The notes under the pieces were generated by a model. The model was not told the DNA's origin and did no database searches. It worked only from the letters and a program-made list of their open reading frames with translations. The position numbers and the translations under genes were made by a program. DNA of 29,764 nucleotides from a virus. Location: IMG/VR virus record IMGVR_UViG_3300046464_000342, positions 1 to 29,764 of that record. One strand, given 5' to 3'. Positions 7,576-29,764 of this stretch are shown in pieces. Each line of letters opens with the position of its first letter. The first letter of the stretch is position 1.

Positions 7576-8955
7576 TCACATGAGGTTGTTAACGCGAACA
7601 CGTCTGTAGTAGCGGTTGGTGTTCTTAGTAAGAGCGCCAGCGCCGACACTTGTGCCTTCTGCGAAGGGGTTAGCAACAATACCATAACGGGTCTTGAAGC
7701 CGATTTTTGGTTGGAAGGTGTCCTGACCAACTGCACGAACCATCTGAAGGGGAACGTATGGGCAGTAGAACAGTCCAGCATCATAAGGGGAAGCACCCTT
7801 ATAACCAACAACGTAGTACTGCGAAGCAGCACTGTTTGCAGAATAAGGATCGATGTATACACGATACTTACCTTGCAGAATACCAGCGAAGGTATTACCT
7901 GCATCGTCAACCTGGAGACCAGCGTTAAGTGCAGGGGTGTAATCAAGAACACCAGCCATAGTCAGGGCGGAAGCAACGTCTGCAGAGCAGAGGATCATGT
8001 TGCCCTTTCCACGACGAGTTCTTTGTGCGATTGCGTTAGCATCGCGCTCGATTTGGAAAATAAGTCCTTTGAACTTCTCAACACTCCAACGTCCGTTGGA
8101 ATCGGTGTCGAGGTCAAATGTACCAGCAGAAGCAACGTTTGCTTGAGCACCAGACTCAGCAACGTTATAGATGGTTCTGATGACTTCACGGTTGATCTCA
8201 GCAAGGATCTCTGTGGAGAGAATGTTTGCGAGTTCAGCCTCAGCGTTCAATCCGTGGATTGCCTTGAGGTCTTGTGCCAGTTCCAAGGAATACTCTGCTT
8301 TCAGAGCGCGGCTCTTAGCAGTAACGGTGACTTTCTCGATCGAGAATGCCATTTCGTTGAAATGTCCTTCTGTACCATCTCCAAGGCTTTCTGCCTCGTC
8401 GGTACGCATACCCTGACCTACGTTGTAGGTTGTTCCGGTTTGACCAGATTCTGGGTTAAGAAGTCCAGGATTGCTACCAGATTGTGCGGTAGTACCCATA
8501 CCAACAGCACCACCAGTGAATCCTGCGGTGTTGTCGTTCGCTGAAGATTGTCCAGAGAATGCGGTGTCTGCTTCGTTGAACAGTGCCTCGGTTCCGCTCT
8601 GATTAGCATAGCGGGAGCGCATTGCGAAGATCAGTCCAGTAGGACCAGACATTGGTTGAACGCCTGCGAGGTCATAAGCGACCAGGTTAGGCATTGCACG
8701 TCTGATCAGGGAGATCAGAACGGGGTCGAAACCAGCAACGGTTTGACCACCAGCGGAAGTATATCCTCCAGCACCAACTGCGTTGGTAGGACCTTCGGAA
8801 AGGAACTCACGCTCTTCCTTAATTGTTTGTTCTTGGTTCTCTAGGAGAACGGCGGTAACAGCTCTGCGGTGGGAATCCTTAATTGGATCCATTCCCTCAT
8901 AGTCGAGAATGGGTGCCCACTTTTCCTGCAGAGCCTCTGTGTTAGGCATTTGCAT
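7576..8955 (-). CDS. 23: gp23, major capsid protein
   Basis: This 459-aa protein is the hexamer-forming HK97-fold shell protein. The conserved core is present: KVTVTAKSRALKAEYSLEL (about 208-226) followed by the ELANILSTEILAEINREVI helix. The N-terminal prodomain (residues 1-54) ends in FLSE|GPTN, matching the T4 gp23 cleavage site FLTE|AEIG, so gp21 should trim it to about 405 residues. It is smaller than T4 gp23 (521 aa) and typical of marine relatives. The ATG at 8953-8955 gives MQMPNT; the second ATG two codons later is also possible. The base composition is richer in G and C than its neighbours, as expected of a very highly expressed gene. Confidence 0.98.
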   Translation of the reverse strand: MQMPNTEALQEKWAPILDYEGMDPIKDSHRRAVTAVLLENQEQTIKEEREFLSEGPTNAVGAGGYTSAGGQTVAGFDPVLISLIRRAMPNLVAYDLAGVQPMSGPTGLIFAMRSRYANQSGTEALFNEADTAFSGQSSANDNTAGFTGGAVGMGTTAQSGSNPGLLNPESGQTGTTYNVGQGMRTDEAESLGDGTEGHFNEMAFSIEKVTVTAKSRALKAEYSLELAQDLKAIHGLNAEAELANILSTEILAEINREVIRTIYNVAESGAQANVASAGTFDLDTDSNGRWSVEKFKGLIFQIERDANAIAQRTRRGKGNMILCSADVASALTMAGVLDYTPALNAGLQVDDAGNTFAGILQGKYRVYIDPYSANSAASQYYVVGYKGASPYDAGLFYCPYVPLQMVRAVGQDTFQPKIGFKTRYGIVANPFAEGTSVGAGALTKNTNRYYRRVRVNNLM

Positions 8956-8995: not shown

Positions 8996-10099
8996 TCACT
9001 TTTTAGCAGCTCTAGAGAGAGTTTGCAGATAGGCTTGCATCATTGGGGATACCTCTTCAGAGATAACCTCGTTGGTAGAAACCTCTTCTGAAAGATTCTC
9101 GGAGGTGCTTGGAGTGCCAGCGGACTCAGGGAAATAAGATTTCCTTAGAGTTACCAGTTTCTCGCGATAGTCTGCTTCACTTTCAAACTCAACATTTTCT
9201 GCAAGAGTAGCGAGCTTCTCTTTCTGAGTGACTGCAAGTCCTTCAGAGACAGTAGCAAAAACGCCATCTGCATTAGATTCTGCTAATCTACGATTCAGAG
9301 CAACATTTCTGTCGATCTGTTCGTTGAGTTTACCTTCCATTTCATCTAGTTTATCTACCATGCTCTCAAGTACATCGTATTTTTCTTCAGGGATTGTTAC
9401 ATAATGTTCTTCAAAGAGACCCTTCATTCCAGTAATGAAGGATTCGGTAATTTCATTTTTAAGTCCTTGCTCAACAGCAAGTGCATTTTCTTGGAACCAC
9501 TCGTCAGCGACGTACTCCAAATAGGAGTCCATACGCTCACTGAGTTCTTCACGAATAGAAGAAACTTCTTCTACCAGAGCATTCTGATATGTTTCGTGAA
9601 GCGCATCTTTCATTTCAGCAACTTTTGTTTTAACTGCTGCTTCAAAGATAGTGCGTGCTTTATCTTGGAACTCTTCAGAGAGATCTTCACCTTCTAAAAG
9701 TGCTTGAACATCTGCTTCGATGTTAATAGTCTCTTCCTCAGTAATTTCTTCTTCCGTTTCGGCAACAACTTCTTCAGCTGCTACTTCCTCTTCAGAAACA
9801 ACCTCTTCTGTGGTTGCTTCCTCTTCAGAAACTATTTCCTGAGTCTCATCAACTTCGGTTTCCTCTTTTGCTGTTCCGGCATCGCCAGGTGCTGCTTTAG
9901 CATTGACGACGTCTTTTACCTGCTTGAGAGTTGCACCTGGGGTTGCAAGTGAATTCGATCCATCGAAGGGATTTGAATTTTCGGGAGTAGGACCGCCGAG
10001 ATCTTCTACTGGGATTCCAGCTGAAGTCATTGGCTCAGCAGCAGCAGCTCCTTTCGTTACTACGTTTTCCATTTCTTGTAAATTGTTACCAACGGACAT
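8996..10099 (-). CDS. 22: gp22, prohead core scaffold protein
   Basis: This 367-aa protein is very acidic and helical, as expected of the main scaffold on which gp23 assembles and which gp21 then destroys. Residues about 80-125 are a low-complexity run of EE, VV and AE units; the rest is predicted helix (e.g. KYDVLESMVDKLDEMEGKL). It is longer than T4 gp22 (269 aa) because of the N-terminal low-complexity part. Sites of the (L/I)xE type that gp21 prefers are present, e.g. DLSE. It sits between gp21 and gp23 as in T4. It starts at ATG 10097-10099, about 37 bases downstream of a perfect TATAAATA box. Confidence 0.9.
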   Translation of the reverse strand: MSVGNNLQEMENVVTKGAAAAEPMTSAGIPVEDLGGPTPENSNPFDGSNSLATPGATLKQVKDVVNAKAAPGDAGTAKEETEVDETQEIVSEEEATTEEVVSEEEVAAEEVVAETEEEITEEETINIEADVQALLEGEDLSEEFQDKARTIFEAAVKTKVAEMKDALHETYQNALVEEVSSIREELSERMDSYLEYVADEWFQENALAVEQGLKNEITESFITGMKGLFEEHYVTIPEEKYDVLESMVDKLDEMEGKLNEQIDRNVALNRRLAESNADGVFATVSEGLAVTQKEKLATLAENVEFESEADYREKLVTLRKSYFPESAGTPSTSENLSEEVSTNEVISEEVSPMMQAYLQTLSRAAKK

Positions 10100-10145: not shown

Positions 10146-10796
10146 TCAAAGATTTGATAGGAAATTATTCCATAACTGGAGTTTATGCTCCTCAAGTTGT
10201 CTTTGATCAGATAATTTATTAATTGCTCTCTCAGTTCTTTCTGCGAGTTGTTCGCGAAGGATTCCTCCTTCCCAAACCCAATCTTTTCCTTCCATAATTC
10301 CATTAACAAAAGCGTCTGGAGCGGAGGGATCGGCAACGATATCAGCAGCAGTTGCTAACTGAAAATCTTCACCAACAATTTTGCATCCTTCACTTGTGGT
10401 TTGGAGTGATCCAACACCACGAGAAGATACGCCAAGTTTCACACCTTCATCTAGAAGAGAAGATGCAATTTTACCCATAGGGGTGGAAAGGATTTGTGCC
10501 TTTCCTCTAAAATTATTACCTTCTTGAACCAGAGAAGTAATTTTATGTGAAACCCTGTCAAGATTGACAGTAGGACCATCGGGATGACCTAGTTCACCCA
10601 AAGCACGACCCTTATTGACAAAAGTTTCGCAATAGCGATTTACTTCCTTAGAAAGAGTTTGCATGGGATACATTCTCCCATTTCTGTTCTTGAGTTCACC
10701 TTGAAGGAAGACTCCCTCAATATAAAGTTTCTTGTTAGCACCCTTACCTTCGGTAAGAATTTCTACATTTGTTACTTCTTCTGTGATAAGTTTCAT
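10146..10796 (-). CDS. 21: gp21, prohead core protein protease
   Basis: This 216-aa serine protease (T4 gp21 is 212 aa) cuts the scaffold, gp23 and internal proteins during head maturation. The likely active site is H71 in ELGHPDGP and S124 or S125 in LGVSSRGVGS. The EGVFLQGELKNRNGRMYP segment (27-44) is also typical of the family. The long C-terminal tail (about 180-216) is helical and may target or self-inhibit the enzyme. It starts at ATG 10794-10796, 8 bases after the stop of the repeat protein. Its position between gp67 and gp22 agrees with T4. Confidence 0.95.
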   Translation of the reverse strand: MKLITEEVTNVEILTEGKGANKKLYIEGVFLQGELKNRNGRMYPMQTLSKEVNRYCETFVNKGRALGELGHPDGPTVNLDRVSHKITSLVQEGNNFRGKAQILSTPMGKIASSLLDEGVKLGVSSRGVGSLQTTSEGCKIVGEDFQLATAADIVADPSAPDAFVNGIMEGKDWVWEGGILREQLAERTERAINKLSDQRQLEEHKLQLWNNFLSNL

Positions 10797-10804
10797 TGTT
10801 GTTA

Positions 10805-11062
10805 TTAACCTGTTACTGGATTGCAGTTTTCATCATGACGTTGATATGTTCCAGGAGTTCTGGTGGTATTATCAGCATTTCTTGCTTGATATGTTCCGGG
10901 TGTCCTGGCAGTATTATTTGCATTGCGGGCTTGATAGTCCGCATTGAAATTTTCATACGTTATACTTGTCCATCCTTCATTGCCACCAAATTGGGTGACT
11001 GATGTTTTTCCTGGTTGCGGAGAAACAGGATTACAATTTTCGTCGTGACGAACGTATGCCAT
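10805..11062 (-). CDS. Short internally repeated protein in the gp68 position
   Basis: This 85-aa protein starts at ATG 11060-11062, overlapping the gp67 stop as TAATG. It is built of repeats. A 15-residue unit, YQARNA(N/D)NT(A/T)RTPGT, occurs twice (43-57 and 58-72), and the nonapeptide RHDENCNPV appears near both ends (5-13 and 75-83), each with one cysteine. The middle (T20-F39) is not repeated. It is polar, with no hydrophobic core, so it is probably extended or folds only when bound. T4 has gene 68 (core protein, 141 aa) at this place, but I see no similarity. A core, capsid-decorating or internal protein is possible. Confidence 0.8.
   Translation of the reverse strand: MAYVRHDENCNPVSPQPGKTSVTQFGGNEGWTSITYENFNADYQARNANNTARTPGTYQARNADNTTRTPGTYQRHDENCNPVTG
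10814..11050 (-). repeat. Coding repeats in the 85-aa protein
   Basis: Two tandem 45-base units (10892-10936 and 10847-10891) encode the 15-residue repeats. Two 27-base units (11024-11050 and 10814-10840) encode the identical nonapeptide at the two ends. The third base of codons differs between copies, so the peptide is kept while the DNA has drifted. Confidence 0.85.
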
Positions 11063-11322
11063 TACTCAGAATCCTCTTCTGTTTCCAACTCTTGTTCTAC
11101 TTCATCACCAACTTCAGTTTCTGCTTCTGCTTCTACTTCAGTTTCTGATTCAGTTTCATCTTCAGTTGTGGGTTGAAACTCTTGACCAAACATTGAATTT
11201 GCAACGTGTGGTCTAGCAAGATCAACTCTTTCTGCTGCTTTCGCATACAGAATTTCTTTCATTCTATCACTGACTTCAGATGCCTTAGCACCAGTAGCCA
11301 TCAAATCGACAACATCTTCCAT
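11062..11322 (-). CDS. 67: gp67-like prohead core protein
   Basis: This 86-aa protein starts at ATG 11320-11322; a longer version would need a TTG. The N-terminal half is helical (EVSDRMKEILYAKAAERVDLARPHV split around residues 16-40) and ends in ANSMFG. The C-terminal half is almost only Glu, Thr and Ala. T4 gp67 (80 aa) has the same layout and the same place between gp20 and gp21, and is a core protein degraded by gp21. The gene name rests on position, size and composition. A TATAAATA late box lies 28 bases upstream. Confidence 0.75.
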   Translation of the reverse strand: MEDVVDLMATGAKASEVSDRMKEILYAKAAERVDLARPHVANSMFGQEFQPTTEDETESETEVEAEAETEVGDEVEQELETEEDSE

Positions 11323-11349
11323 AAAAATTTTCAATATAATCTTATACTA

Positions 11350-11357
11350 TATTTATA
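11350..11357 (-). promoter_or_regulatory. Late promoter TATAAATA overlapping the gp20 stop
   Basis: A perfect late box contains the TAA stop of gp20 (11353-11355). The next ATG is 28 bases downstream, so it should drive gp67, the repeat protein and gp21. Confidence 0.75.
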
Positions 11358-13068
11358 ACTCAGCCTTTTTGGTATCTTTCTGATACTGTGCATCCACAAT
11401 TGCTGCATCATCAGAACTCGTATCTTCATCATTTGGAATGTCACCCATCCCATTTGGATCTGCACCCATTCCTGCCATACCAGAACCTTCACCTACTTGT
11501 GGTAAAGGTTGTCCAGTTACAGGATCTATTGTTGACGGATCTGGAATAATTCCTTTCATAATCTCATCTTCAATCTGCATATCAATTTCAATGATCTCAG
11601 AATCACTTTGGCGCAAGATTCTCTTACGGACATACTCAGTTGAATAGAACTTACCGATGTATGGTTCCATAGTTGCTAGGAGACCCAGACGGTTTTGGAC
11701 CAATTCAGATTCCTTAAGTTCTGCAAATTGATTATCATACAAGAAATCATATTGAATATGATCTTTCATATACTCCCAATCTTCTGGAGTAATGACGTTC
11801 TTCAGAATCAATTGAGTTTTGAGCATATCATTGAACATCTGAGAAAAACGCTTTCTCAGACGACCAACAAACTTAGCAAACTTGAGTTCATCTCTCAGAA
11901 TCTCAGAAGAACGACCGAGGTTAAACCCACCATCAGCAGCAATTCTGGATTCCGGAACACCAAGTGCTCTGTAGAGTTTTTTCTGGAAATATTCAATATC
12001 AGCAAGTTCTCCCAGATTTTGACCACCAGGAAGAGTTGTGATTTCAGTTCCTCTACCACCTTCACGGCGAGGTAACCAGAAGTCCTCCATCATGGACATA
12101 AACTTACGATCATCACGGATTTCTCCAGTCTGTGCATTATATGCAAGTTTATTTCTGTAGCGAGACATAACCTCTTTGAGGTATTGCTCTGCTTTTACTT
12201 TTGGAAGATTGCCAACATCGATGTAGAAAATTCTACGCTCGGGTGCGCGGGAGAGACGATAGATAACAAGCGAATCCTCAATCATTCTCAGTTGATTGAG
12301 TGCTTTAATTGCTTTATGCAGATATGATAGAACTGTATTCTTATTTCTATCTACTAAACCAGAAGTACAATAAGTTACAGAATCTTTTGACAGTTTTATT
12401 GCCTTTGATGCACTTCTACCAACACTAGTTGTTGGATAGTTTGGTGATGGTGTGTATTGGAAAAATTCTTCAAATTCGGGTCCTTTATATTGATCAATTT
12501 CTTGTTTCTGAGCACCATTAACTCTTATTGTACCAATATCATATTGATTTGGTTTTTTCTTCTCTTGACGAATATACTTCATCTTAAGAGGATCAATATA
12601 TCTCAACTCTTGAATCCCCGCTTGGGGATTTGCCATATCAATTACTTTGAGATAATATATTCTTCCGTCAACATACCAATTTCTAAAGATTTCGTGTGCT
12701 TTTCTATCGAAATCTAAAATCTCTTTTAAATACTTGAATTCCTCTCTAATTCTAATCTTGAGAGGTTCACTTATATTCAGATTTGATAACTCAATCTCAA
12801 CAGGTGAGTCATACAAATCACTAACTATTGCTTCATTAACTACATCTTCAATAGCACCATCCGCTTCAGGATGGAGTGACATTTCTCTATATCTTTTTAT
12901 TAAATCATGCTCTGTTTTAAATACACCTTCAATGTCAATATATGAACCATAAAATCCACTAGAGACATAGTTATCAACCCCGTCCTGATTAGTTTCAGGA
13001 ACGGGGGAGATGACTGAAGGTGACTTATTTTGGTTGCCGTCAATTTTAAAACCAAAAAGTTTGGCCAT
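11353..13068 (-). CDS. 20: gp20, portal vertex protein
   Basis: This 571-aa protein (T4 gp20 is 524 aa) forms the dodecameric DNA gate at one head vertex and starts prohead assembly. Diagnostic stretches are DGAIEDVVNEAI, RNWYVDGRIYY, RIFYIDVGNLPK, DFWLPRREGGRGTEITTLPG and GVPESRIAADGGFNLGRSSEI. The stem and wing helices follow. The C-terminal 60 residues (PDPSTIDPVTGQ onward) are Gly, Pro and Asp rich and look disordered. The ATG is at 13066-13068. The gene lies between the tube and core genes as in T4. Confidence 0.97.
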   Translation of the reverse strand: MAKLFGFKIDGNQNKSPSVISPVPETNQDGVDNYVSSGFYGSYIDIEGVFKTEHDLIKRYREMSLHPEADGAIEDVVNEAIVSDLYDSPVEIELSNLNISEPLKIRIREEFKYLKEILDFDRKAHEIFRNWYVDGRIYYLKVIDMANPQAGIQELRYIDPLKMKYIRQEKKKPNQYDIGTIRVNGAQKQEIDQYKGPEFEEFFQYTPSPNYPTTSVGRSASKAIKLSKDSVTYCTSGLVDRNKNTVLSYLHKAIKALNQLRMIEDSLVIYRLSRAPERRIFYIDVGNLPKVKAEQYLKEVMSRYRNKLAYNAQTGEIRDDRKFMSMMEDFWLPRREGGRGTEITTLPGGQNLGELADIEYFQKKLYRALGVPESRIAADGGFNLGRSSEILRDELKFAKFVGRLRKRFSQMFNDMLKTQLILKNVITPEDWEYMKDHIQYDFLYDNQFAELKESELVQNRLGLLATMEPYIGKFYSTEYVRKRILRQSDSEIIEIDMQIEDEIMKGIIPDPSTIDPVTGQPLPQVGEGSGMAGMGADPNGMGDIPNDEDTSSDDAAIVDAQYQKDTKKAEL

Positions 13069-16007: not shown

Positions 16008-16220
16008 CTACCAATCTGGGTATTCCCAAACATCACTACCCTTTTTAACTCTTTTTTTAGTACATTCTTTACATTCATAAGAGTATGATGATGCAACTGG
16101 ACCTCTATCTTTTCTAGTTCTGTAAAATCCATCAAGCATATTTTTAGTGTTACCACAAACTCTACATTTTCTATCATAAAGTAGAAGATGTCCTAGTTTT
16201 AATTGATCATCTAACTCCAT
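16008..16220 (-). CDS. Small zinc-ribbon protein after the large terminase
   Basis: This 70-aa protein starts at ATG 16218-16220, which overlaps the gp17 stop as TGATG; the longer frame uses a GTG and is less likely. Two cysteine pairs, CRVC (about 24-27) and CKEC (about 50-53), are spaced like a zinc ribbon. The segment between them, FYRTRKDR...SSYSYECKEC, resembles the zinc-finger part of HNH and endonuclease VII-type nucleases. The catalytic HNH residues are absent, so it may be a remnant or a stand-alone DNA-binding ribbon. A homing-endonuclease origin is possible. It might also help gp17, but nothing in the sequence shows this. Confidence 0.82.
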   Translation of the reverse strand: MELDDQLKLGHLLLYDRKCRVCGNTKNMLDGFYRTRKDRGPVASSYSYECKECTKKRVKKGSDVWEYPDW

Positions 16221-17869
16221 CAATAATAATCCCACATATATGCTCGATCACCATATTCGTCAGTATGCCAGCGATCACCATCTTTATCTGTAAATGATCC
16301 TGTCATATCATTAATTCCATCATCTAAAAATCCAAAAGGTGCCATATCTTGATCTATCTGATTTTTCTGCTCTTCATATATTCTCTTACGAATATCATTA
16401 TCAGTCATTTCCTTGAAGTAGTCTTGTGCTACCAACCAAGCAAAGATAACAAGACACATTGCAAGGTCATCATTACAACCTTCTTCTGCTTCAAAAGAAT
16501 TGTGTCTCTGAGCAAAGGTAGTCAGTTCGGAAATTATTTCATAATCTAATGTTAATAACTTAAAATCTTCAATTAACATTTTTAAGTTTGAACAACCAAG
16601 TTTTTTAACTTGTGCTGTTGTTCTAACACCCATCTGTGATTTTTTACCTGAGAATCCGTGCCCAACAACTTGTCCTGCACGACCTCTCATCGCTGCCATC
16701 AACATATTTTCATACTCCAAGTCATAATGGAGAATGTTTGCTACCTGCTCTCCAATATCATTGACTTCTATTAGCACCCAAGCATCATTATATGCCTTCG
16801 CTGTTTGTTGAATGATGTTGGGAAACAACATCGGTTTTATTTCATTATTTCTATACTTCGCTACTATCTTGTAGGGAAACTCTGTAATATCAACAACGAT
16901 AAATGCAGAATAATCGTTGCCCAACCCACGAGCAACATCAACAGTAGTAAGGTAGTTGTGTTCAGGTTTCGCTTTTTCGTAGACATCTAAACCTGCACTT
17001 CTTTGGATAGGATCTTCATAAATGAGATTCTTTAAAATTGATGGATTTATAAGGGTATTGACAGAACCAAGAAACTCACACTCGAACTCGACTTTGAATT
17101 GCTGTTCAGATGTGTTAGCAATCGTCTGTTCTTTCCATACTTCATCTCTTCCAGGAACCTCGGACCAATGAACATCAGTTGGAATGTATTCATTTTTACC
17201 TTTCTCAGAATCATGCCACATTCGGTAGAAATGATTCATACCGTGTGGAGTGGATACAATAATTACTTTGGTGTTTTTACCAGAAGTAATAGTAGGATAA
17301 ACAGATGCAAAGAACGAGTCTGCAACATGGTTTGGAACGAATGCAAATTCGTCGAGGAATAGGATATTGAACGACATGCCTCGGACAGCACTTGCAGACG
17401 TAGAAGCTGCCAATATCTTACTGCCATTTTCTAACTCTAAAGATCCTTTGTTCCATGATATGATACCCTGCTGCATCCATTTAGGCAAGTTTTCGTAAGC
17501 AGTTTGTAACCTACTGAGAAGTTCTCTAGCAGTTGCCGCCTTGTTTGCTAAGATGCCAATGTTAACACTATCATTAAAAACAGCATAATGTAGAAGATAA
17601 GATACCACAGTGGTAGACTTACCAGTCTGACGTGGCATCTTACAGATATTAAACCTGTTATTATTAAAATTGTGAATTAATTTCTCTTGAAAGTCATAAG
17701 GATCAAACTGCGTCAATCCTTCATCAAGAGAAACAATTTTTACATAGTTTTTTGCAAAATAGACGGGATCTTCTTTACACCGCATAAACTCAAGAACTTG
17801 ATCTTGAGTAAATTCGATGGGTGTATTTGCTTTTTTTAATAATGGATTGCCAAGGTACTGTTCATTCAT
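16220..17869 (-). CDS. 17: gp17, large terminase subunit (ATPase and nuclease)
   Basis: This 549-aa protein (T4 gp17 is 610 aa) pumps DNA into the prohead and cuts the concatemer. ATPase motifs are Walker A PRQTGKST (79-86), Walker B ILFLDEFAF (169-177) and coupling motif IIVSTPHG (203-210). The RNase H-like nuclease has D311 in TTVDVARG, E368 in LIEVND and D467 or D468 in CNDDLAM, matching the T4 acidic triad. It starts at ATG 17867-17869. No clear ribosome-binding site is seen in the A-rich 40-base gap before it. In this phage three other genes lie between it and gp16. Confidence 0.97.
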   Translation of the reverse strand: MNEQYLGNPLLKKANTPIEFTQDQVLEFMRCKEDPVYFAKNYVKIVSLDEGLTQFDPYDFQEKLIHNFNNNRFNICKMPRQTGKSTTVVSYLLHYAVFNDSVNIGILANKAATARELLSRLQTAYENLPKWMQQGIISWNKGSLELENGSKILAASTSASAVRGMSFNILFLDEFAFVPNHVADSFFASVYPTITSGKNTKVIIVSTPHGMNHFYRMWHDSEKGKNEYIPTDVHWSEVPGRDEVWKEQTIANTSEQQFKVEFECEFLGSVNTLINPSILKNLIYEDPIQRSAGLDVYEKAKPEHNYLTTVDVARGLGNDYSAFIVVDITEFPYKIVAKYRNNEIKPMLFPNIIQQTAKAYNDAWVLIEVNDIGEQVANILHYDLEYENMLMAAMRGRAGQVVGHGFSGKKSQMGVRTTAQVKKLGCSNLKMLIEDFKLLTLDYEIISELTTFAQRHNSFEAEEGCNDDLAMCLVIFAWLVAQDYFKEMTDNDIRKRIYEEQKNQIDQDMAPFGFLDDGINDMTGSFTDKDGDRWHTDEYGDRAYMWDYY

Positions 17870-18078: not shown

Positions 18079-18375
18079 CTATACATCCATTGGTGCTTTA
18101 GGATTCCTTAAAGGAGTAATTTTTTGTGTACTCGGAGTTACAGATGGGTAATTGAATCGTGGAGCTCCACGATTAGTGTTCTGAGCGGGTATACCTGCTT
18201 TCTCCCTTTCCTTATCCCTTTCTCTATGAAAATCGAGAGTCGTGTTCCTTCTACCTAAACCGAAAGCACGTCTGCCTCTATCAATATCACCAGAACCGGG
18301 TACAATATTAATATTGACTCCTTGTGGAAATCCTTTTGGAACTGTTTGTTCGATAAACTGTTTAAAAGTTTTCAT
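18079..18375 (-). CDS. Small basic protein (98 aa) with capsid-targeting-like N-terminus
   Basis: It starts at ATG 18373-18375, which overlaps the stop of the 630-aa gene as TGATG; the GTG four codons upstream is less likely. The N-terminus MKTFKQFIEQ resembles the T4 internal-protein targeting peptide MKTYQEFIAE, identical at M1, K2, T3, F7 and I8. After that come a Gly/Pro stretch (KGFPQGVNINIVPGSG), an Arg-rich segment (DRGRRAFGLGRRN, DFHRERDKEREK) and a Pro/Thr-rich tail. It is strongly basic, as expected for a protein packed with DNA. No known domain is recognised. Packaging in the head and trimming by gp21 are inferred. Confidence 0.85.
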   Translation of the reverse strand: MKTFKQFIEQTVPKGFPQGVNINIVPGSGDIDRGRRAFGLGRRNTTLDFHRERDKEREKAGIPAQNTNRGAPRFNYPSVTPSTQKITPLRNPKAPMDV

Positions 18376-20267
18376 CAGCACTTCCACCTTCTACGTGCTT
18401 TACAAATTTTCTTATCTGGGGTTTTTGAGCAATCGATGTTGTGCATCTTCATCTGACCTTTAGATCGACTGCAATAAGAAGAACGACGCTTTGCATCTTT
18501 GCTTCCTTTCTTTGGATTGCCTGTTACAGCAGTCTTCAGTTTAGAACCTGGATTCTCACGCTTATATGCATTAACAGATTTTTGACTCATACCATCAACA
18601 CCATCTTTGCGATTTGATTTCTGCCAATCTTCTTGCATGTCAAAATCTGATCTCCAATCATAATGATTTATGGATTCACTTTTCGTGGAGAAAGTCATTG
18701 AAGGACTGCCACCATAAGTAATTTTATCTTTTGTTTTAGTGTTATGAACATTAGGTGCTTGGAACTTTCTAGGTTCAAAATTACGCTGCCCCTGAGATCT
18801 TACCTGATCCGCAGTTTGACCTTTTTGGTCCATTGCAGCATATCCACCACCAGCTTTAAATTCTTTATTTGATTTTCTATCAGCAAACCTCCTTTTAATA
18901 TCAGATTTCGTTTCAGCAGAAACTTCTTGAATTTGCTCAATCCCTTCTTCCTTGACACAATTTGGATATCTTTTTCCAAACATTGTCTTCATACCCTTTT
19001 TCTTATATCCTTTCCAACACTTTTCATCAAGCATCTTACTTCCAATTCCTTCAGTTGGTTGTAGTGGTTCTGTTTTGATAATATCTACAGATTCATATTC
19101 AAGTGCCTGAAAATCATCTCTCCAATTGGAGAACTCATAACTTTCTTTTTTGGTTTTGTTACCCCAGTTCTTAGCACCTTTTTTACGGCACTTAACTAAA
19201 GCACCTGATGCATAAGCACTTGGCCAGACAGAATAACGAGACTTGACTTTATGATAGCAAGCATCTTTCTTACCTTCATCAACCATTTCACCTTCTGGTT
19301 CATAATGTGCTTTATCTAATTTAACTCCTGGTTTCAAATTCTTTAATCTCTGCAGTCTTTCTCTTTCAAGATCCTGTGGACTCTTCAAACCTCCCTTACC
19401 ACCCATCTTAATCATATCTCTGGGACCTGTACCCCAGGCATCGCGTTCGGCAATAACTTCCTCTTTAACACCTCTTGCCTTGTTGATGGCATCTTGCATT
19501 TTTTGATTTCTAGATTTAACCTTCTCACCAACTTCTCTTGCTTTGTCCATAAGTTTCAATCCAGCAAGTCCTGTACCTATTGCTAAACCTGCACGAATGA
19601 CATTTGCAGCACCTTCATCAATAGATTTTGATTCTTCTCTCCAGTTTGAATAAGATTCTGTTTTCACGTTGATTGCCTTTCCTTTTCTATTTGGATTTGG
19701 ATCTTGACGTTGCTTTCTATTAAATGCCTTTTTCTCTTCCTTATCATTTAAATTTGCAGCCATTTTGCTGGACCCACACTTAGGTTTGGTCTTTTGTCCT
19801 GGTTGCTTTGCACAAGGTTTTCCAGCATATTTCCCACCCAATTGGACCCAACCAGGTTTGCCATCACTAGACTTACTCTTACTAAACCAGTCACGCAAAG
19901 AAGAATCACCACTCTTCGATTCGCTTACTTTTTCTCTACTCCCACAATGTGCTCGTTGAGAGAATCCTTTTGGATTATTGCAATCGATGGATTTTTTGTA
20001 CTTTGCACTCCACGATTCAGAGACGCCACCTCCGCCGCCTTCACCACCTCCATCAGAAGAGGAGCCATCCCCGTTGCCATTGCCATTTGAGTGATTTCCA
20101 TTTCCATTTCCTCCATTACCATTATTTTTTGTTTCTTCATCAGAATCATCACCTTTTTCCTTACGAAGATATCCACCTATACCAAGAATATAACCACGAG
20201 GTATTTTTTTACACTTTTCATCAGTGTTGCAATAGTAATATCCTTTTTTGCAGGACTTCTTAGACAT
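18375..20267 (-). CDS. Large modular Cys-rich basic protein between the terminase genes
   Basis: This 630-aa protein starts at ATG 20265-20267 (TGATG with gp16). It is a chain of small basic modules with conserved cysteines. Residues 6-36 hold KGYYYC...EKCKKIPRGY. Residues 41-81 are a Gly/Asn/Ser linker. Residues 86-110 contain DCNNPKGFSQRAHCGS. Residues 124-170 (RDWFSK, GKPGWVQ, GKPC, PKCGSSK) resemble DUF5872. Residues 336-370 (CYHKVKSRYSVWPSAYASG) resemble DUF6321. Residues 417-437 hold KCWKGYKKKGMKTMFGK. Residues 597-630 hold SSYCSRSKG...KARRRWKC. A short motif (S/N/D)WR(E/D/S) appears near 208, 381 and 538, each time after ES. The DUF names are from memory. It is probably a virion or head-internal DNA-binding protein. 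Confidence 0.88.
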   Translation of the reverse strand: MSKKSCKKGYYYCNTDEKCKKIPRGYILGIGGYLRKEKGDDSDEETKNNGNGGNGNGNHSNGNGNGDGSSSDGGGEGGGGGVSESWSAKYKKSIDCNNPKGFSQRAHCGSREKVSESKSGDSSLRDWFSKSKSSDGKPGWVQLGGKYAGKPCAKQPGQKTKPKCGSSKMAANLNDKEEKKAFNRKQRQDPNPNRKGKAINVKTESYSNWREESKSIDEGAANVIRAGLAIGTGLAGLKLMDKAREVGEKVKSRNQKMQDAINKARGVKEEVIAERDAWGTGPRDMIKMGGKGGLKSPQDLERERLQRLKNLKPGVKLDKAHYEPEGEMVDEGKKDACYHKVKSRYSVWPSAYASGALVKCRKKGAKNWGNKTKKESYEFSNWRDDFQALEYESVDIIKTEPLQPTEGIGSKMLDEKCWKGYKKKGMKTMFGKRYPNCVKEEGIEQIQEVSAETKSDIKRRFADRKSNKEFKAGGGYAAMDQKGQTADQVRSQGQRNFEPRKFQAPNVHNTKTKDKITYGGSPSMTFSTKSESINHYDWRSDFDMQEDWQKSNRKDGVDGMSQKSVNAYKRENPGSKLKTAVTGNPKKGSKDAKRRSSYCSRSKGQMKMHNIDCSKTPDKKICKARRRWKC

Positions 20268-20698
20268 CACTTACTATCAGATTCATTATTATTTAGAAAA
20301 CCTTGTTTGAGTAACTTTGAAAGTTCTGATGTAGACCCAACAAATAAAGCGTTATTTGTTACATTATTTGGTCCCTTACTACCATTATCTTCTTCCAGAT
20401 CTTTTAACTTTTTCTGAAGATCTGCTAATTTATCTGTAGTATCTGCAACAGATTTGATTAATTGACCCGCAACTTCATATGCTCTAGGACTTGCACTTTC
20501 ACCTGCAAGTTCCATAATACCATTTATTGCTTCTTGACCCTTTTCAATCAAAGAATATAAGTTTGCTCTTGTATACTCATAATCTTTTTTAATATCATTC
20601 TTTTCCACTTTTAGTGGAACAGGTTTTACTGGTTTTGACTCAACAATACTACTTTCAATATTGAGTGCTTCATCAATAGAATCATAACTATTAGTCAT
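20267..20698 (-). CDS. 16: gp16, small terminase subunit
   Basis: This 143-aa protein (T4 gp16 is 164 aa) recognises DNA and regulates the gp17 packaging motor as a ring. The diagnostic core is ANLYSLIEKGQEAINGI (about 45-61), followed by RAYEVAGQLIKSVADTTDKL (about 72-91) and a coiled-coil segment. The C-terminal NNALFVGSTSELSKLLKQG (about 114-132) is the gp17-binding part in T4. The N-terminal 40 residues are variable. It lies 5 bases after the gp15 stop. Unlike T4, gp17 does not follow it directly. Confidence 0.95.
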   Translation of the reverse strand: MTNSYDSIDEALNIESSIVESKPVKPVPLKVEKNDIKKDYEYTRANLYSLIEKGQEAINGIMELAGESASPRAYEVAGQLIKSVADTTDKLADLQKKLKDLEEDNGSKGPNNVTNNALFVGSTSELSKLLKQGFLNNNESDSK

Positions 20699-26312: not shown

Positions 26313-29300
26313 TTATGCAAGTGCTATTACTCTAAAGTCTGTAAGTGAAACTGGTGTTGATTCATTTGTGGATGACATTACAACCTTTAATGCAAAGGCA
26401 GTAAATTGATCAAGATTGTTTGCAGTAAATTGATACTCCGAGAACCCTTCGGTTCCATTAGGAGAAACAAATGCATCCGCTCTACCACTATTTAAGTCTG
26501 AATTAATTACCATATCACCGAAACCATCTCCATCAGTATCTCTCAAATTATCATATCCTGGAAAAGGTACAAATTTCTGAGGAATTTCCGTAGAATCTGC
26601 TTTATATAATTGATATAAGACTCTAAAATCTGCACCTTCTTGTACATTAGCAGCAATGTACACTTTCAAACTTGTTGCTGGTTGTGCAAGAGAAATACTC
26701 TTAGTTACAAATACCGCACCATGTGGATCCTGATCTATGGAATTAGATCTAGAATCTGTAATGTAATCACCGACTGGAGCATTAGATTTATTTCTTCCAA
26801 GAATGAATGTTGCATTTTGTGCATCCATTACGGGGGAGACATTTTCATTTTCACTTGCAAACTCAACTCTCATTGTTAGTGACTTATTACGTGGTAACGT
26901 TGTAAGTCTTTCAAGTTCATTTGCTCTGGAAGCAACCATTCTAGGAGTATTAAACTTGAGTGGTTTGTTGAGAGGAAGTGGTTCATATCCTTGATCTTGG
27001 AATGAAACTTCTCTTCCGCCTGCACTTGTTCCAGATATTGTTCTAATGAAACTTCTTGCTGAAGTTCCCTTTCCAGGGGTAATAATATTAAATTCTGAAA
27101 CAATAGTGCTGAACTGGTAGTTTTGAGAAATACCAACTTCAGTGCCACCAAATCCTTTTTCAGATGCAAAATTCAACAAAGCATCTCCAGAAACCCTACT
27201 TGATGGTGTTGACCTGTCAACTTCTATGAAGTAACTATCAAGATCCGAACTTTCATTTTTATAAAATGTTGATGGAATATTATGAGTTTTGTTAATTCTC
27301 ATCAAAGAAACACCATTGACTTCATATGGTTGAATAGATGCTCCAGTTTCATGTGCAATTTTTACAGTTCCATTTACTGCTCTTCCATCAATACTAAGAG
27401 TTCCTGCTCCAGCATTTCCTGCAGAAATATTACTGTAAGAAACTACTTCACTGTTTATGATTGCATATCCTCTACTTGTAGAAATTCCTTCAGCAACTCC
27501 AAATAATGAAGTATTTGCAATAGAAACTGTAGTGTCAGTTAATCCAAATGCTGCACTAAGTTCCGTCTTAGTACTATCTGGTTTAATATCAACAATTTCA
27601 ATTTTATTGTTTCCACCATGATGTGCGTGATTATGCTGCTTAATGCTCATAATGTTTCCAACATACTTTTCATCGTAAATTGAAGATCCATTAGTTCCAA
27701 CATTAGCACCAGCAGTTAATGCAGTTCTAGAAAGATGATTATCTGGTTCCGTATAATAAACTAATGCTTCACCCTGAGTATAGTTTTCACCCAAAACATT
27801 AGTCATATACAGAGTATCAAAAGTGGTATTATGAGTCTTGATTGTTACTCTGGCACCACTACCTCCACCACCAGTTGCAGATGTAACACCAACAACTTCT
27901 CCACTACGATATCCAGTTCCAACAGCAGTAATGTTTACTCCAGTTACACCACCAGAAGCATCAACTGTAATAGTTGCTTGTGCTCCAGATCCTTGACCAG
28001 AGATTGGGAATAGTGGAACACTATTATAAGAACCTGCCTTATACCCAGAACCACTATTTCCAATAGCAACGTTACCAGTTCCCGTTGCAGCAATAGGTCC
28101 GCCAGTTGCTTCAATAAATCCAGTCGTGCCTTCTGTTGCAGGAGTAACGCTTACTCCACCTTGTCCAACTTTTACACCTGTTAAAAGTAAAGATTGTTCA
28201 TTTGCAGTAACACCAGTTACTGGCAGTTTTAACTTTCTTGGTAATCCTTGAATTGGATTATCTTCCAAAATGGAAGAATTATCACCCTTAGGTAACACAT
28301 CTCCATTATACCAAGTAACGGTGCCAGATTTAACAAATTTTGCTTTATTAAGTCTGAATGTTAGATCTTGGAACTGTGAAGGAGTCCAGATTGTTCCATT
28401 CTGAGATTTGAACAGAGATCCACCAAGATACTGTTTAGTAACAACAACATTTTGAACATCAGGAAGACTTGTTGTTCTAACAGTCTTTTTGCCCATTGTT
28501 GCCGTCCACATTTCATATCCATCAGATGCTGGAGAGAGAATGACAATAGCATATTCTGTATCATTACCTTCAAGATAAATTGGTGATTCAAATTTAACAT
28601 TTGTTGCTACTGGTTCAAATGGATTTGCTTCATTAACATTAATATCTGCAGGATTAAGTGAAACCTGAGCATAATCTTGAACTAGAAGACCTGTTGGTGT
28701 TCCAAGTTCAACTGTTCTAAGTTCAACAAAGATCTTTGCACCAGGATCCTTAGTTGCAAAGAATAGATCAACAGAAGTTAAGAAAATACCTTCTGGTTCT
28801 GTAACCGTAAATGATTGTGCAAGGGGGTCTCTATGAACTGCCTTAACAGTTTTCTTAATGTCAATTTCAGTTTTCTTTCTACGTGGTTTGGGTGGATTTC
28901 TAACAGAAACTCTAGAAGTTTCTTGGGTTAAAATACTTCCGGAACCACTATAAGTTCCAATTGCTTCCGATGCAAATACAGTAGATCCTGGTAATGGAGT
29001 TACACCAGGAGGAACTGCAGTAACTTTTACAGTTTTTGTTCCACTCTTAACTCTTATTGCTGGTGCTGGATTAGAATTTGGATTTCTAAAGAAGAACGTT
29101 CCAATTATATCTCCCCAATTATCGGAGACTAATTCGGCTCTTGTTATTGTCGCAACTGCACCAGATGTTCTACCAACAACTTTAAATCCTTTTCTTACAT
29201 ATCCATAAAATTTTTCACTAATAGAAAGAACTCTTACACCAAAATTAATCAGTTTTGATGTTGGAGAATATGCAGTTCCAGGTCCAGGTCTATCTCTGTC

Positions 29301-29764
29301 ATAAGGGTCTACTTGATATTCTTCAACAAGAACCGCAGGAGATCCTAAACCAGCACCAATATCAGGTCTTGTAGTATCACCAAACTTATGATTAGGTCTT
29401 TGAACTCTTATGAATCCAACTTTTCTACCCCTAATATCGAAAATATCAGCATTTTCAAATACGGTAAATGTACCTGAATTCATTTCAATTTCACAAAGTT
29501 TGGGAACAATATCAACTTGTTGTGCATCAAGATACTTGTAATGCTTTGTATATGGTCTTAAACCGTTCGCAGCAAAGTAAACATTTCTTGAACGCATCCA
29601 AGGATCTGCTTCACCAGAAACTTTTACATCTTCAACATAATCAAATTCTCTTGCAGGTCCTCTAAGTTTAGGTTTAAACTTAGTTGTTGTTGTAACCTTA
29701 GTTGTAGTAACTGCTTTTTTAAGTCTTTCACCTCTACCACCACCTTTTTTATATTTTTCAATTA
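26313..29764 (-). CDS. Very large virion structural protein, 5' end beyond window
   Basis: The frame is open to the right edge, so 1149 residues are visible and the true start is outside the window. An ATG at 29595-29597 is not the start, since 55 more codons lie upstream. The visible N-terminal part is Lys/Thr rich (VTTTKVTTTTKFKPK), then MRSRNVYFAANGLRPYTKHYKYLD. The middle holds DPLAQSFTV...FLTSVDLFFATKD, a pattern seen in large structural proteins of marine myoviruses. A Gly-rich GxGY repeat pair (27838-28070) follows. The C-terminus has GYDNLRDTDGDGFGD and a final beta domain FSEYQFTANNLDQFTAFALKVVM. It is probably a baseplate, fibre-attachment or fibre protein. Confidence 0.88.
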   Translation of the reverse strand, partial: IEKYKKGGGRGERLKKAVTTTKVTTTTKFKPKLRGPAREFDYVEDVKVSGEADPWMRSRNVYFAANGLRPYTKHYKYLDAQQVDIVPKLCEIEMNSGTFTVFENADIFDIRGRKVGFIRVQRPNHKFGDTTRPDIGAGLGSPAVLVEEYQVDPYDRDRPGPGTAYSPTSKLINFGVRVLSISEKFYGYVRKGFKVVGRTSGAVATITRAELVSDNWGDIIGTFFFRNPNSNPAPAIRVKSGTKTVKVTAVPPGVTPLPGSTVFASEAIGTYSGSGSILTQETSRVSVRNPPKPRRKKTEIDIKKTVKAVHRDPLAQSFTVTEPEGIFLTSVDLFFATKDPGAKIFVELRTVELGTPTGLLVQDYAQVSLNPADINVNEANPFEPVATNVKFESPIYLEGNDTEYAIVILSPASDGYEMWTATMGKKTVRTTSLPDVQNVVVTKQYLGGSLFKSQNGTIWTPSQFQDLTFRLNKAKFVKSGTVTWYNGDVLPKGDNSSILEDNPIQGLPRKLKLPVTGVTANEQSLLLTGVKVGQGGVSVTPATEGTTGFIEATGGPIAATGTGNVAIGNSGSGYKAGSYNSVPLFPISGQGSGAQATITVDASGGVTGVNITAVGTGYRSGEVVGVTSATGGGGSGARVTIKTHNTTFDTLYMTNVLGENYTQGEALVYYTEPDNHLSRTALTAGANVGTNGSSIYDEKYVGNIMSIKQHNHAHHGGNNKIEIVDIKPDSTKTELSAAFGLTDTTVSIANTSLFGVAEGISTSRGYAIINSEVVSYSNISAGNAGAGTLSIDGRAVNGTVKIAHETGASIQPYEVNGVSLMRINKTHNIPSTFYKNESSDLDSYFIEVDRSTPSSRVSGDALLNFASEKGFGGTEVGISQNYQFSTIVSEFNIITPGKGTSARSFIRTISGTSAGGREVSFQDQGYEPLPLNKPLKFNTPRMVASRANELERLTTLPRNKSLTMRVEFASENENVSPVMDAQNATFILGRNKSNAPVGDYITDSRSNSIDQDPHGAVFVTKSISLAQPATSLKVYIAANVQEGADFRVLYQLYKADSTEIPQKFVPFPGYDNLRDTDGDGFGDMVINSDLNSGRADAFVSPNGTEGFSEYQFTANNLDQFTAFALKVVMSSTNESTPVSLTDFRVIALA

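Follow-up and report, generated by a model that had tools for sequence, protein, structure and literature searches.

The head genes of phage T4 are arranged in the order 20-67-68-21-22-23, and gp68, a prohead core protein encoded between genes 67 and 21, has been described as non-essential (PMC9958956). Two further T4 proteins are relevant by analogy only: Hoc, an Ig-like fibre on the capsid that is attached by its C-terminal domain (PMC9958956), and fibritin (wac), in which a conserved N-terminal anchor is combined with a variable C-terminus (PMC3797505). The region between gp16 and gp17 has been described as a hot-spot where variable genes occur (PMC3037559), and for S-SCSM1 a mass-spectrometric study is reported to have identified 45 phage proteins in the virion (PMC9602691).

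The stretch of DNA analysed here (29,764 nucleotides, henceforth the window) belongs to the genome of a T4-like cyanophage. It contains, on the minus strand (10805..11062) and in a single copy, an open reading frame with an ATG start for an 85-aa repeat protein, P0001, of which residues 1-85 match positions 1-85 of the profile of PHROG_17325 (E 6.2e-43), a phage protein family whose function is not annotated. The family includes PHM1_109 of P-HM1, recorded as T4-like GC 520, which is 70.6% identical to P0001 and has the same four repeat units, but differs in that its gene lies between gp16 and gp17 and in that its end units, RHDKDNNEV and RHDKDNNAV, are free of cysteine. Weak matches were obtained with PHROG_3552 (403 aa) and PHROG_32891. 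The Pfam search of P0001 gave no match, and the sequence search of solved structures gave one chance-level match (7c5x, E 1.4). A literature search by six family identifiers returned no paper, and no description of the family was present among the matches listed for cyanophage virion-protein, decoration, and repeat literature (supplementary tables excepted); the family is already known as a PHROGs cluster and as P-HM1 GC 520, with no published account of it found.

Relatives were collected as follows (loci are designated by L numbers). A tblastn search with P0001 against 50,697 phage records (E up to 10) returned 67 places in 65 records, including a Shewanella phage record that was taken as chance and was gone at E up to 1. 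When the relative L184 served as the query (E up to 1), 64 places in 64 records were found (56 Synechococcus, 6 Prochlorococcus, 2 Cyanophage, with many ACG-2014f isolates and GenBank/RefSeq duplicates among them), i.e., the domain occurs once per record in 64 of 64 despite differing gene slots. Among 84,980 species genomes of bacteria and archaea, a pattern matched 17 stretches, none of which was confirmed as a relative, and the plasmids searched yielded none. From IMG/VR, 120 relatives were confirmed with the P0001 query (80 kept) and 372 with the profile (80 kept); the incomplete L043 was dropped from the former set, and five new loci were used from the latter, the remainder being mostly the same contigs. 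Altogether, 139 loci were read; from 138 of these and the window, 101 distinct proteins were obtained, among which 92 have at most 95 aa. Ten new loci and three repeating known contigs from further searches stand outside the counts. The intact L173 is inside the counts of 93 proteins and the paired-change test, and outside the counts of 90 proteins and the slot tree; L179 and L218 were missed by the unit pattern in the 90-protein counts, L179 is also outside the paired-change tree, and L177 is outside the slot tree. A lack of homologues or frequent frame loss had been named in the initial annotation as grounds for doubt. Homologues were found, and none of the copies read showed an internal stop or frameshift (L169 runs off the contig end), with broken copies possibly under-counted by locus searches that favour conserved-peptide copies.

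Setting in the head gene operon

P0001 lies within a series of head genes that are all encoded on the minus strand, namely the gp20 portal protein (11353..13068; PF07230, E 7e-187), an acidic 90-aa gp67-like open reading frame at the T4 gene 67 position (11062..11334; PHROG_14164, 5e-20), P0001 itself, the gp21 prohead protease (10146..10796; PF03420, E 3e-36), the gp22 scaffold (8996..10099; assigned by position and by match to an annotated cyanophage gp22), and the gp23 major capsid protein (7576..8955; PF07068, E 5e-151). Also on this strand are gp17 and gp19 (match to the P-HM1 gene order) as well as gp18 (PF17482, PF04984). Acidic tandem repeats are present in gp22 and in the gp67-like protein (9764-9832 and 11095-11167, minus strand, with periods of 33 nt and 12/24 nt, respectively). 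Base 11062 belongs both to the stop codon TAA of the acidic open reading frame (11062-11064) and to the P0001 start codon ATG; the two are therefore probably coupled in translation, and gp21 starts 8 nt past the P0001 stop. From this overlap and spacing, P0001 is very probably expressed together with the prohead genes, and expression would be late.

Given the T4 gene order, P0001 occupies the gene 68 position, as had been proposed in the initial annotation, which had also judged the protein unlike a T4 core protein. Both points hold. No profile similarity was found between the P0001 family and T4 gp67, and the comparison with T4 gp68, represented by a single sequence so that very remote kinship could escape it, gave an hhalign probability of 0.1 over 1 aligned column. 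In composition, P0001 is turn-rich and poorer in charged and helix-forming residues than either of these T4 proteins. P0001 contains no [IL]xE site, which we take to be the gp21-type cleavage motif, compared with five in T4 gp68, three in T4 gp67, and 18 in the gp22 of the window, and the motif is present in one of 93 unique short proteins; this is a weak test, since the gp67-like protein of the window has none either. The assignment to the prohead core is further weakened by 66 of the 139 loci, in which the gene lies in the gp16-gp17 slot, and by the fusion of the domain to large Ig-like proteins (see below). A functional stand-in for gp68, internal to the prohead and removed at maturation, would fit the exact gene position within the same operon and a gene that, like T4 gene 68 (PMC9958956), may be dispensable; set against the evidence above, we consider it improbable.

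The phage operons ranked highest in a nucleotide search came from P-SSM2 and related phages (72-73% identity over 90% of 4.2 kb). Between gp20 and gp21, P-SSM2 carries a single, different small gene, and this phage is absent among the records with the P0001 domain; P0001 is regarded as accessory because P-SSM2-type operons lack it where checked. The operon is matched by 467 records named Synechococcus, Prochlorococcus, or Cyanophage, but only 64 phage records carry the domain. The gp20-gp21 slot of S-SCSM1 holds two other small genes of 90 and 93 aa that are annotated as “virion protein” (L093 2288-2841), and S-SKS1, S-SRM01 (a DUF7243 protein), and Bellamy have different genes in this slot, with no visible copy of the repeat. 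The slot proteins P0009, P0012, and P0015 gave no PHROG_17325 match at E up to 0.01.

Repeat units and end cysteines of P0001

The nonapeptide RHDENCNPV stands at residues 5-13 (unit 1, 11024..11050) and again at residues 75-83, where it is preceded by YQ (unit 4, residues 73-83, 10814..10846), exactly as the initial annotation had it. The tandem 15-mers reported before the second copy are likewise present as unit 2 (YQARNANNTARTPGT, residues 43-57, 10892..10936) and unit 3 (YQARNADNTTRTPGT, residues 58-72, 10847..10891), with 13 of 15 residues matching, and the same array was found by Tandem Repeats Finder (period 45, 2.1 copies, 10841-10936). Unit 1 is followed by an insert with G30-W31 that is conserved in the alignment (residues 18-38, 10949..11011; all units and the insert on the minus strand). 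The longest repeated word in P0001 has nine residues, and no word longer than six was repeated when the protein was shuffled 20,000 times. All six frames of the window were scanned with the unit pattern, and the four matches obtained lie inside P0001; a look for RHDENCNP in other proteins of the genome had been suggested in the initial annotation.

The end nonapeptides had been treated as a feature separate from the central repeats. All four units of L184 are of the type RHDENNNPV, RHD-type units 2 and 3 also occur in L170, L171, L179, L185, and L188-L190, and in L039, L058, and L062 unit 3 is RHD-type and unit 2 of the window's type. Judged by these relatives with RHD-type middle units, the end nonapeptides belong with the central 15-mers to a single four-member repeat family, in which the nonapeptides are units 1 and 4, and the middle units of the window are read as diverged copies of an RHD-type unit. 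The classes of units 2/3 among 93 unique short proteins were ARN/ARN (50), YTYNS/RHD (27), RHD/RHD (8), YTYNS/ARN (4), and ARN/RHD (2), with two left unclassed by the automatic rule (L058, L080). P0001 shows this four-unit architecture with the G-W insert after unit 1 (a family description of our own and not of the PHROG library), and D7, Q16, P17, G30, N65, Y73, and R75 are invariant in 72 aligned sequences. The relative in S-N03 (L008 4007-4243) has permuted units, in the order ARN, RHD, RHD with the QP stretch, and AHD, which suggests rearrangement at the level of units. The “identical end peptides” of a short protein can thus be remnants of a simple tandem repeat.

Within the family, identical ends are unusual: among 90 unique short proteins, 11 have them, and in nine of the 11 they read RHDENCNPV. 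Between the two 27-nt copies in the window, six of nine codons differ and all differences are synonymous, in agreement with the earlier observation of differing codons, from which selection on the peptide had been proposed. In the close group (the window and L013-L032, 14 distinct DNA sequences), two extra synonymous codons and no extra residue were counted over the nine codons of unit 4, and seven extra synonymous codons and two extra residues in unit 1. These changes fit purifying selection on the nonapeptide, as had been proposed, and are too few for ranking the units. The mean identity of the end units was 6.69 of 9, compared with 5.79 in slot-wise shuffles (maximum 6.16, 2000 shuffles), an excess that is not decisive because shared ancestry alone could produce it, and tests on a tree from which the end units were left out gave no clear signal.

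The cysteine of each end unit (Cys10 and Cys80) had led to the idea that the protein forms disulphides or chains. Among 90 proteins, cysteine was present at both sites in 22, at the N-terminal site only in five, at the C-terminal site only in none, and at neither in 63, and the site is usually occupied by Asn in relatives. The residue is lineage-specific, and disulphide formation is unlikely as a conserved function of the family, 63 of the 90 being without cysteine at both ends. Paired gains and losses on the tree amounted to four independent pairs when well-supported branches only were considered, a result short of significance (median p 0.25). P0001 as a former of disulphide-linked chains would account for the joint occurrence at both ends and for the lack of proteins with the C-terminal cysteine alone; the many relatives with cysteine at neither end, the five with the N-terminal one only, and the prevailing Asn make it hardly credible.

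Two gene slots and fusions of the domain

The gene was found between gp20 and gp21 in 73 and between gp16 and gp17 in the other 66 of the 139 loci (slots assigned by the nearest core genes found). In nine of ten annotated phage records that were opened, the relative follows gp13-gp16 genes, with gp17 downstream in P-HM1, S-H9-2, ACG-2014f, S-N03, and S-RIM32, and beyond the stretch examined in S-BM3, S-H9-1, Sf-CH1b, and S-RSM4; S-SCSM2R is the one record of the ten with the relative between gp20 and gp21. On a tree of the domain (LG+G4; 100 rows and 89 columns) in which many forks are unresolved, at least five slot changes are needed (bootstrap range 4-5), and two are forced by well-supported branches; by this tree, the slot was switched at least twice.

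Several other genes of the window were noted in this context, all on the minus strand. Its own gp16-gp17 slot holds a 631-aa Lys/Ser-rich protein (18375-20270; PHROG_727, 9e-104, function not annotated), the Cys/Lys-rich C-terminal tail of which recurs in the proteins that P-HM1 and ACG-2014f have in their gp16-gp17 slots and that differ from it in other respects. A 75-aa Cys4 protein between gp17 and gp18 (16008-16235; endonuclease VII-like PHROG_4723, 1.5e-31) is also present in several gp20-gp21-slot relatives (L013, L015, L018, L039, L062). A 1094-aa protein (26313-29597) matches the C-terminal part of PHROG_358 (1205-2055 of 2056, function not annotated) and shows a weak match over one stretch to head closure Hc2.

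Each of the two slots lies next to packaging genes (gp16/gp17, or gp20), as would be expected if P0001 were a non-virion assembly factor, e.g., a terminase or portal cofactor encoded beside either. Such a factor would hardly be expected to be fused to Ig-like or tail-protein-like regions, nor to be kept in as few records as carry the domain compared with those matching the operon, and we regard this role as quite improbable.

The P0001 domain forms the N-terminus of 403-404-aa proteins in ACG-2014f, L166, L167, L168, L178, and L183. In the ACG-2014f protein, which represents PHROG_3552, the N-terminal ~90 residues are the P0001 domain, and ~300 extra residues, absent from P0001, are predicted to be beta-rich with Ig/FnIII-like matches. 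The 638-aa protein of L233, located in the gp20-gp21 slot, has the domain at residues 1-86 (PHROG_17325, 6e-32) and matches the “tail protein” phrog_5939 over residues 281-637 (4.5e-90). In L187, between gp20 and the gp67-like gene, ~130 other residues are followed by the domain and then by the ACG-type Ig-like region. The AlphaFold2 model of L178 (7 sequences; pLDDT 65.9, pTM 0.44) is strand-rich after residue 96 and best in the last 200 residues, with a pLDDT below 50 in the repeat domain. When this model was compared with viral models by Foldseek, 82 matches had E up to 0.001, with the ACG-2014f protein, itself a family member, at rank 1; the best 50 of the 82 included a single “Decorating protein,” proteins of the Ig-like, FnIII, tail-fibre, and tip-attachment kinds, and many without a name. 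Against the PDB, the best rows of the long relative were mainly Ig/FnIII and complement chains (Z 7-8) and included phage lambda tail-tip chains and RB49 Hoc (3shs: rank 37, Z 7.0, 249 aligned, rmsd 12.2), the latter not above unrelated Ig/FnIII rows; this level is background for such folds. No sequence similarity to T4 Hoc was found for the P0001 family, and Hoc attaches C-terminally (PMC9958956), whereas the shared module of the P0001 family is N-terminal.

The main rival to a capsid decoration is a neck or tail site, with the core and assembly roles discussed above being less likely. The domain would then plug the portal and neck or the tail and carry exchangeable distal domains, for which the gp13-gp16 neck and packaging genes beside the alternative slot, the tail-protein-like distal part of L233, and the conserved N-terminal anchor and variable C-terminus of fibritin (PMC3797505) may be cited. 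The likeness to fibritin is one of arrangement: the profile comparison with the single T4 sequence gave an hhalign probability of 0.3 over 15 columns, and the P0001 model has no helix. With the gene in the capsid operon in 73 loci as well, we consider this site unlikely.

Predicted structure and proposed role

The AlphaFold2 model of P0001 (72 aligned sequences; pLDDT 68.5, pTM 0.23) has a beta-hairpin at residues 18-25/31-38 (block pLDDT 58-68), isolated bridges in the units, and no helix, and is best in the last 25 residues (block means 79-84). No Ig-like domains were seen in this weak model, which suggests a string of turns that perhaps needs a partner for folding. With it, the fold search yielded nothing at E up to 0.001; a protein of 103 aa without a name came first (75% identity over 44 columns), followed at ranks 2 and 3 by family members.

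The P0001 domain may be a virion anchor or decoration module that stands alone here, a reading to which we give about even credence. It is favoured by the operon position with overlapping start and stop codons, by the N-terminal placement of the same domain in the 403-404-aa beta-rich/Ig-like proteins and its presence in L233 and L187, by the variability of the gp20-gp21 slot, in which the S-SCSM1 genes are annotated as virion proteins, and by the restriction to one place per phage record with none confirmed in bacteria, archaea, or plasmids. It is weakened by the poor P0001 model with no fold match, by the low pLDDT of the repeat domain in the 404-aa model and PDB matches at background, by the lack of sequence similarity to T4 Hoc or fibritin, and by the fact that fused C-terminal parts are no proof of virion binding by the N-terminal one. 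Mass-spectrometric or structural evidence for stand-alone members was not found in the literature as far as its text was available, supplementary tables excepted.

On the virion-module reading, P0001 would be one of the accessory structural proteins of this T4-like marine cyanophage, small in size and built from four imperfect turn units of 13-15 residues (approximately Y-x-R-H-D-x-[DN]-N-N-x-V-x-P), the first and second of which are separated by a Trp-containing hairpin. Its domain would act as the virion-attachment module of a modular family, placed in some phages N-terminal to Ig-like domains or to a tail-protein-like adhesin region, and made here alone alongside the portal, core, and protease genes. 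The stand-alone protein would probably act as a small decoration protein that coats or plugs this same site of the virion. More specifically, and in our estimate possible though rather unlikely, the domain could be a new virion docking plug of 15-residue turn repeats that attains its fold only when bound to the particle or in oligomeric form (a short beta-spiral, perhaps), and that is moved by cyanomyoviruses between two slots to swap or omit Ig-like or receptor-binding heads at a conserved site.

Cyanomyovirus particles hold many structural proteins without an assigned role. A small domain that occurs alone or N-terminal to Ig-like and tail-protein-like proteins, in two gene slots, would offer a testable handle on how these particles are decorated.
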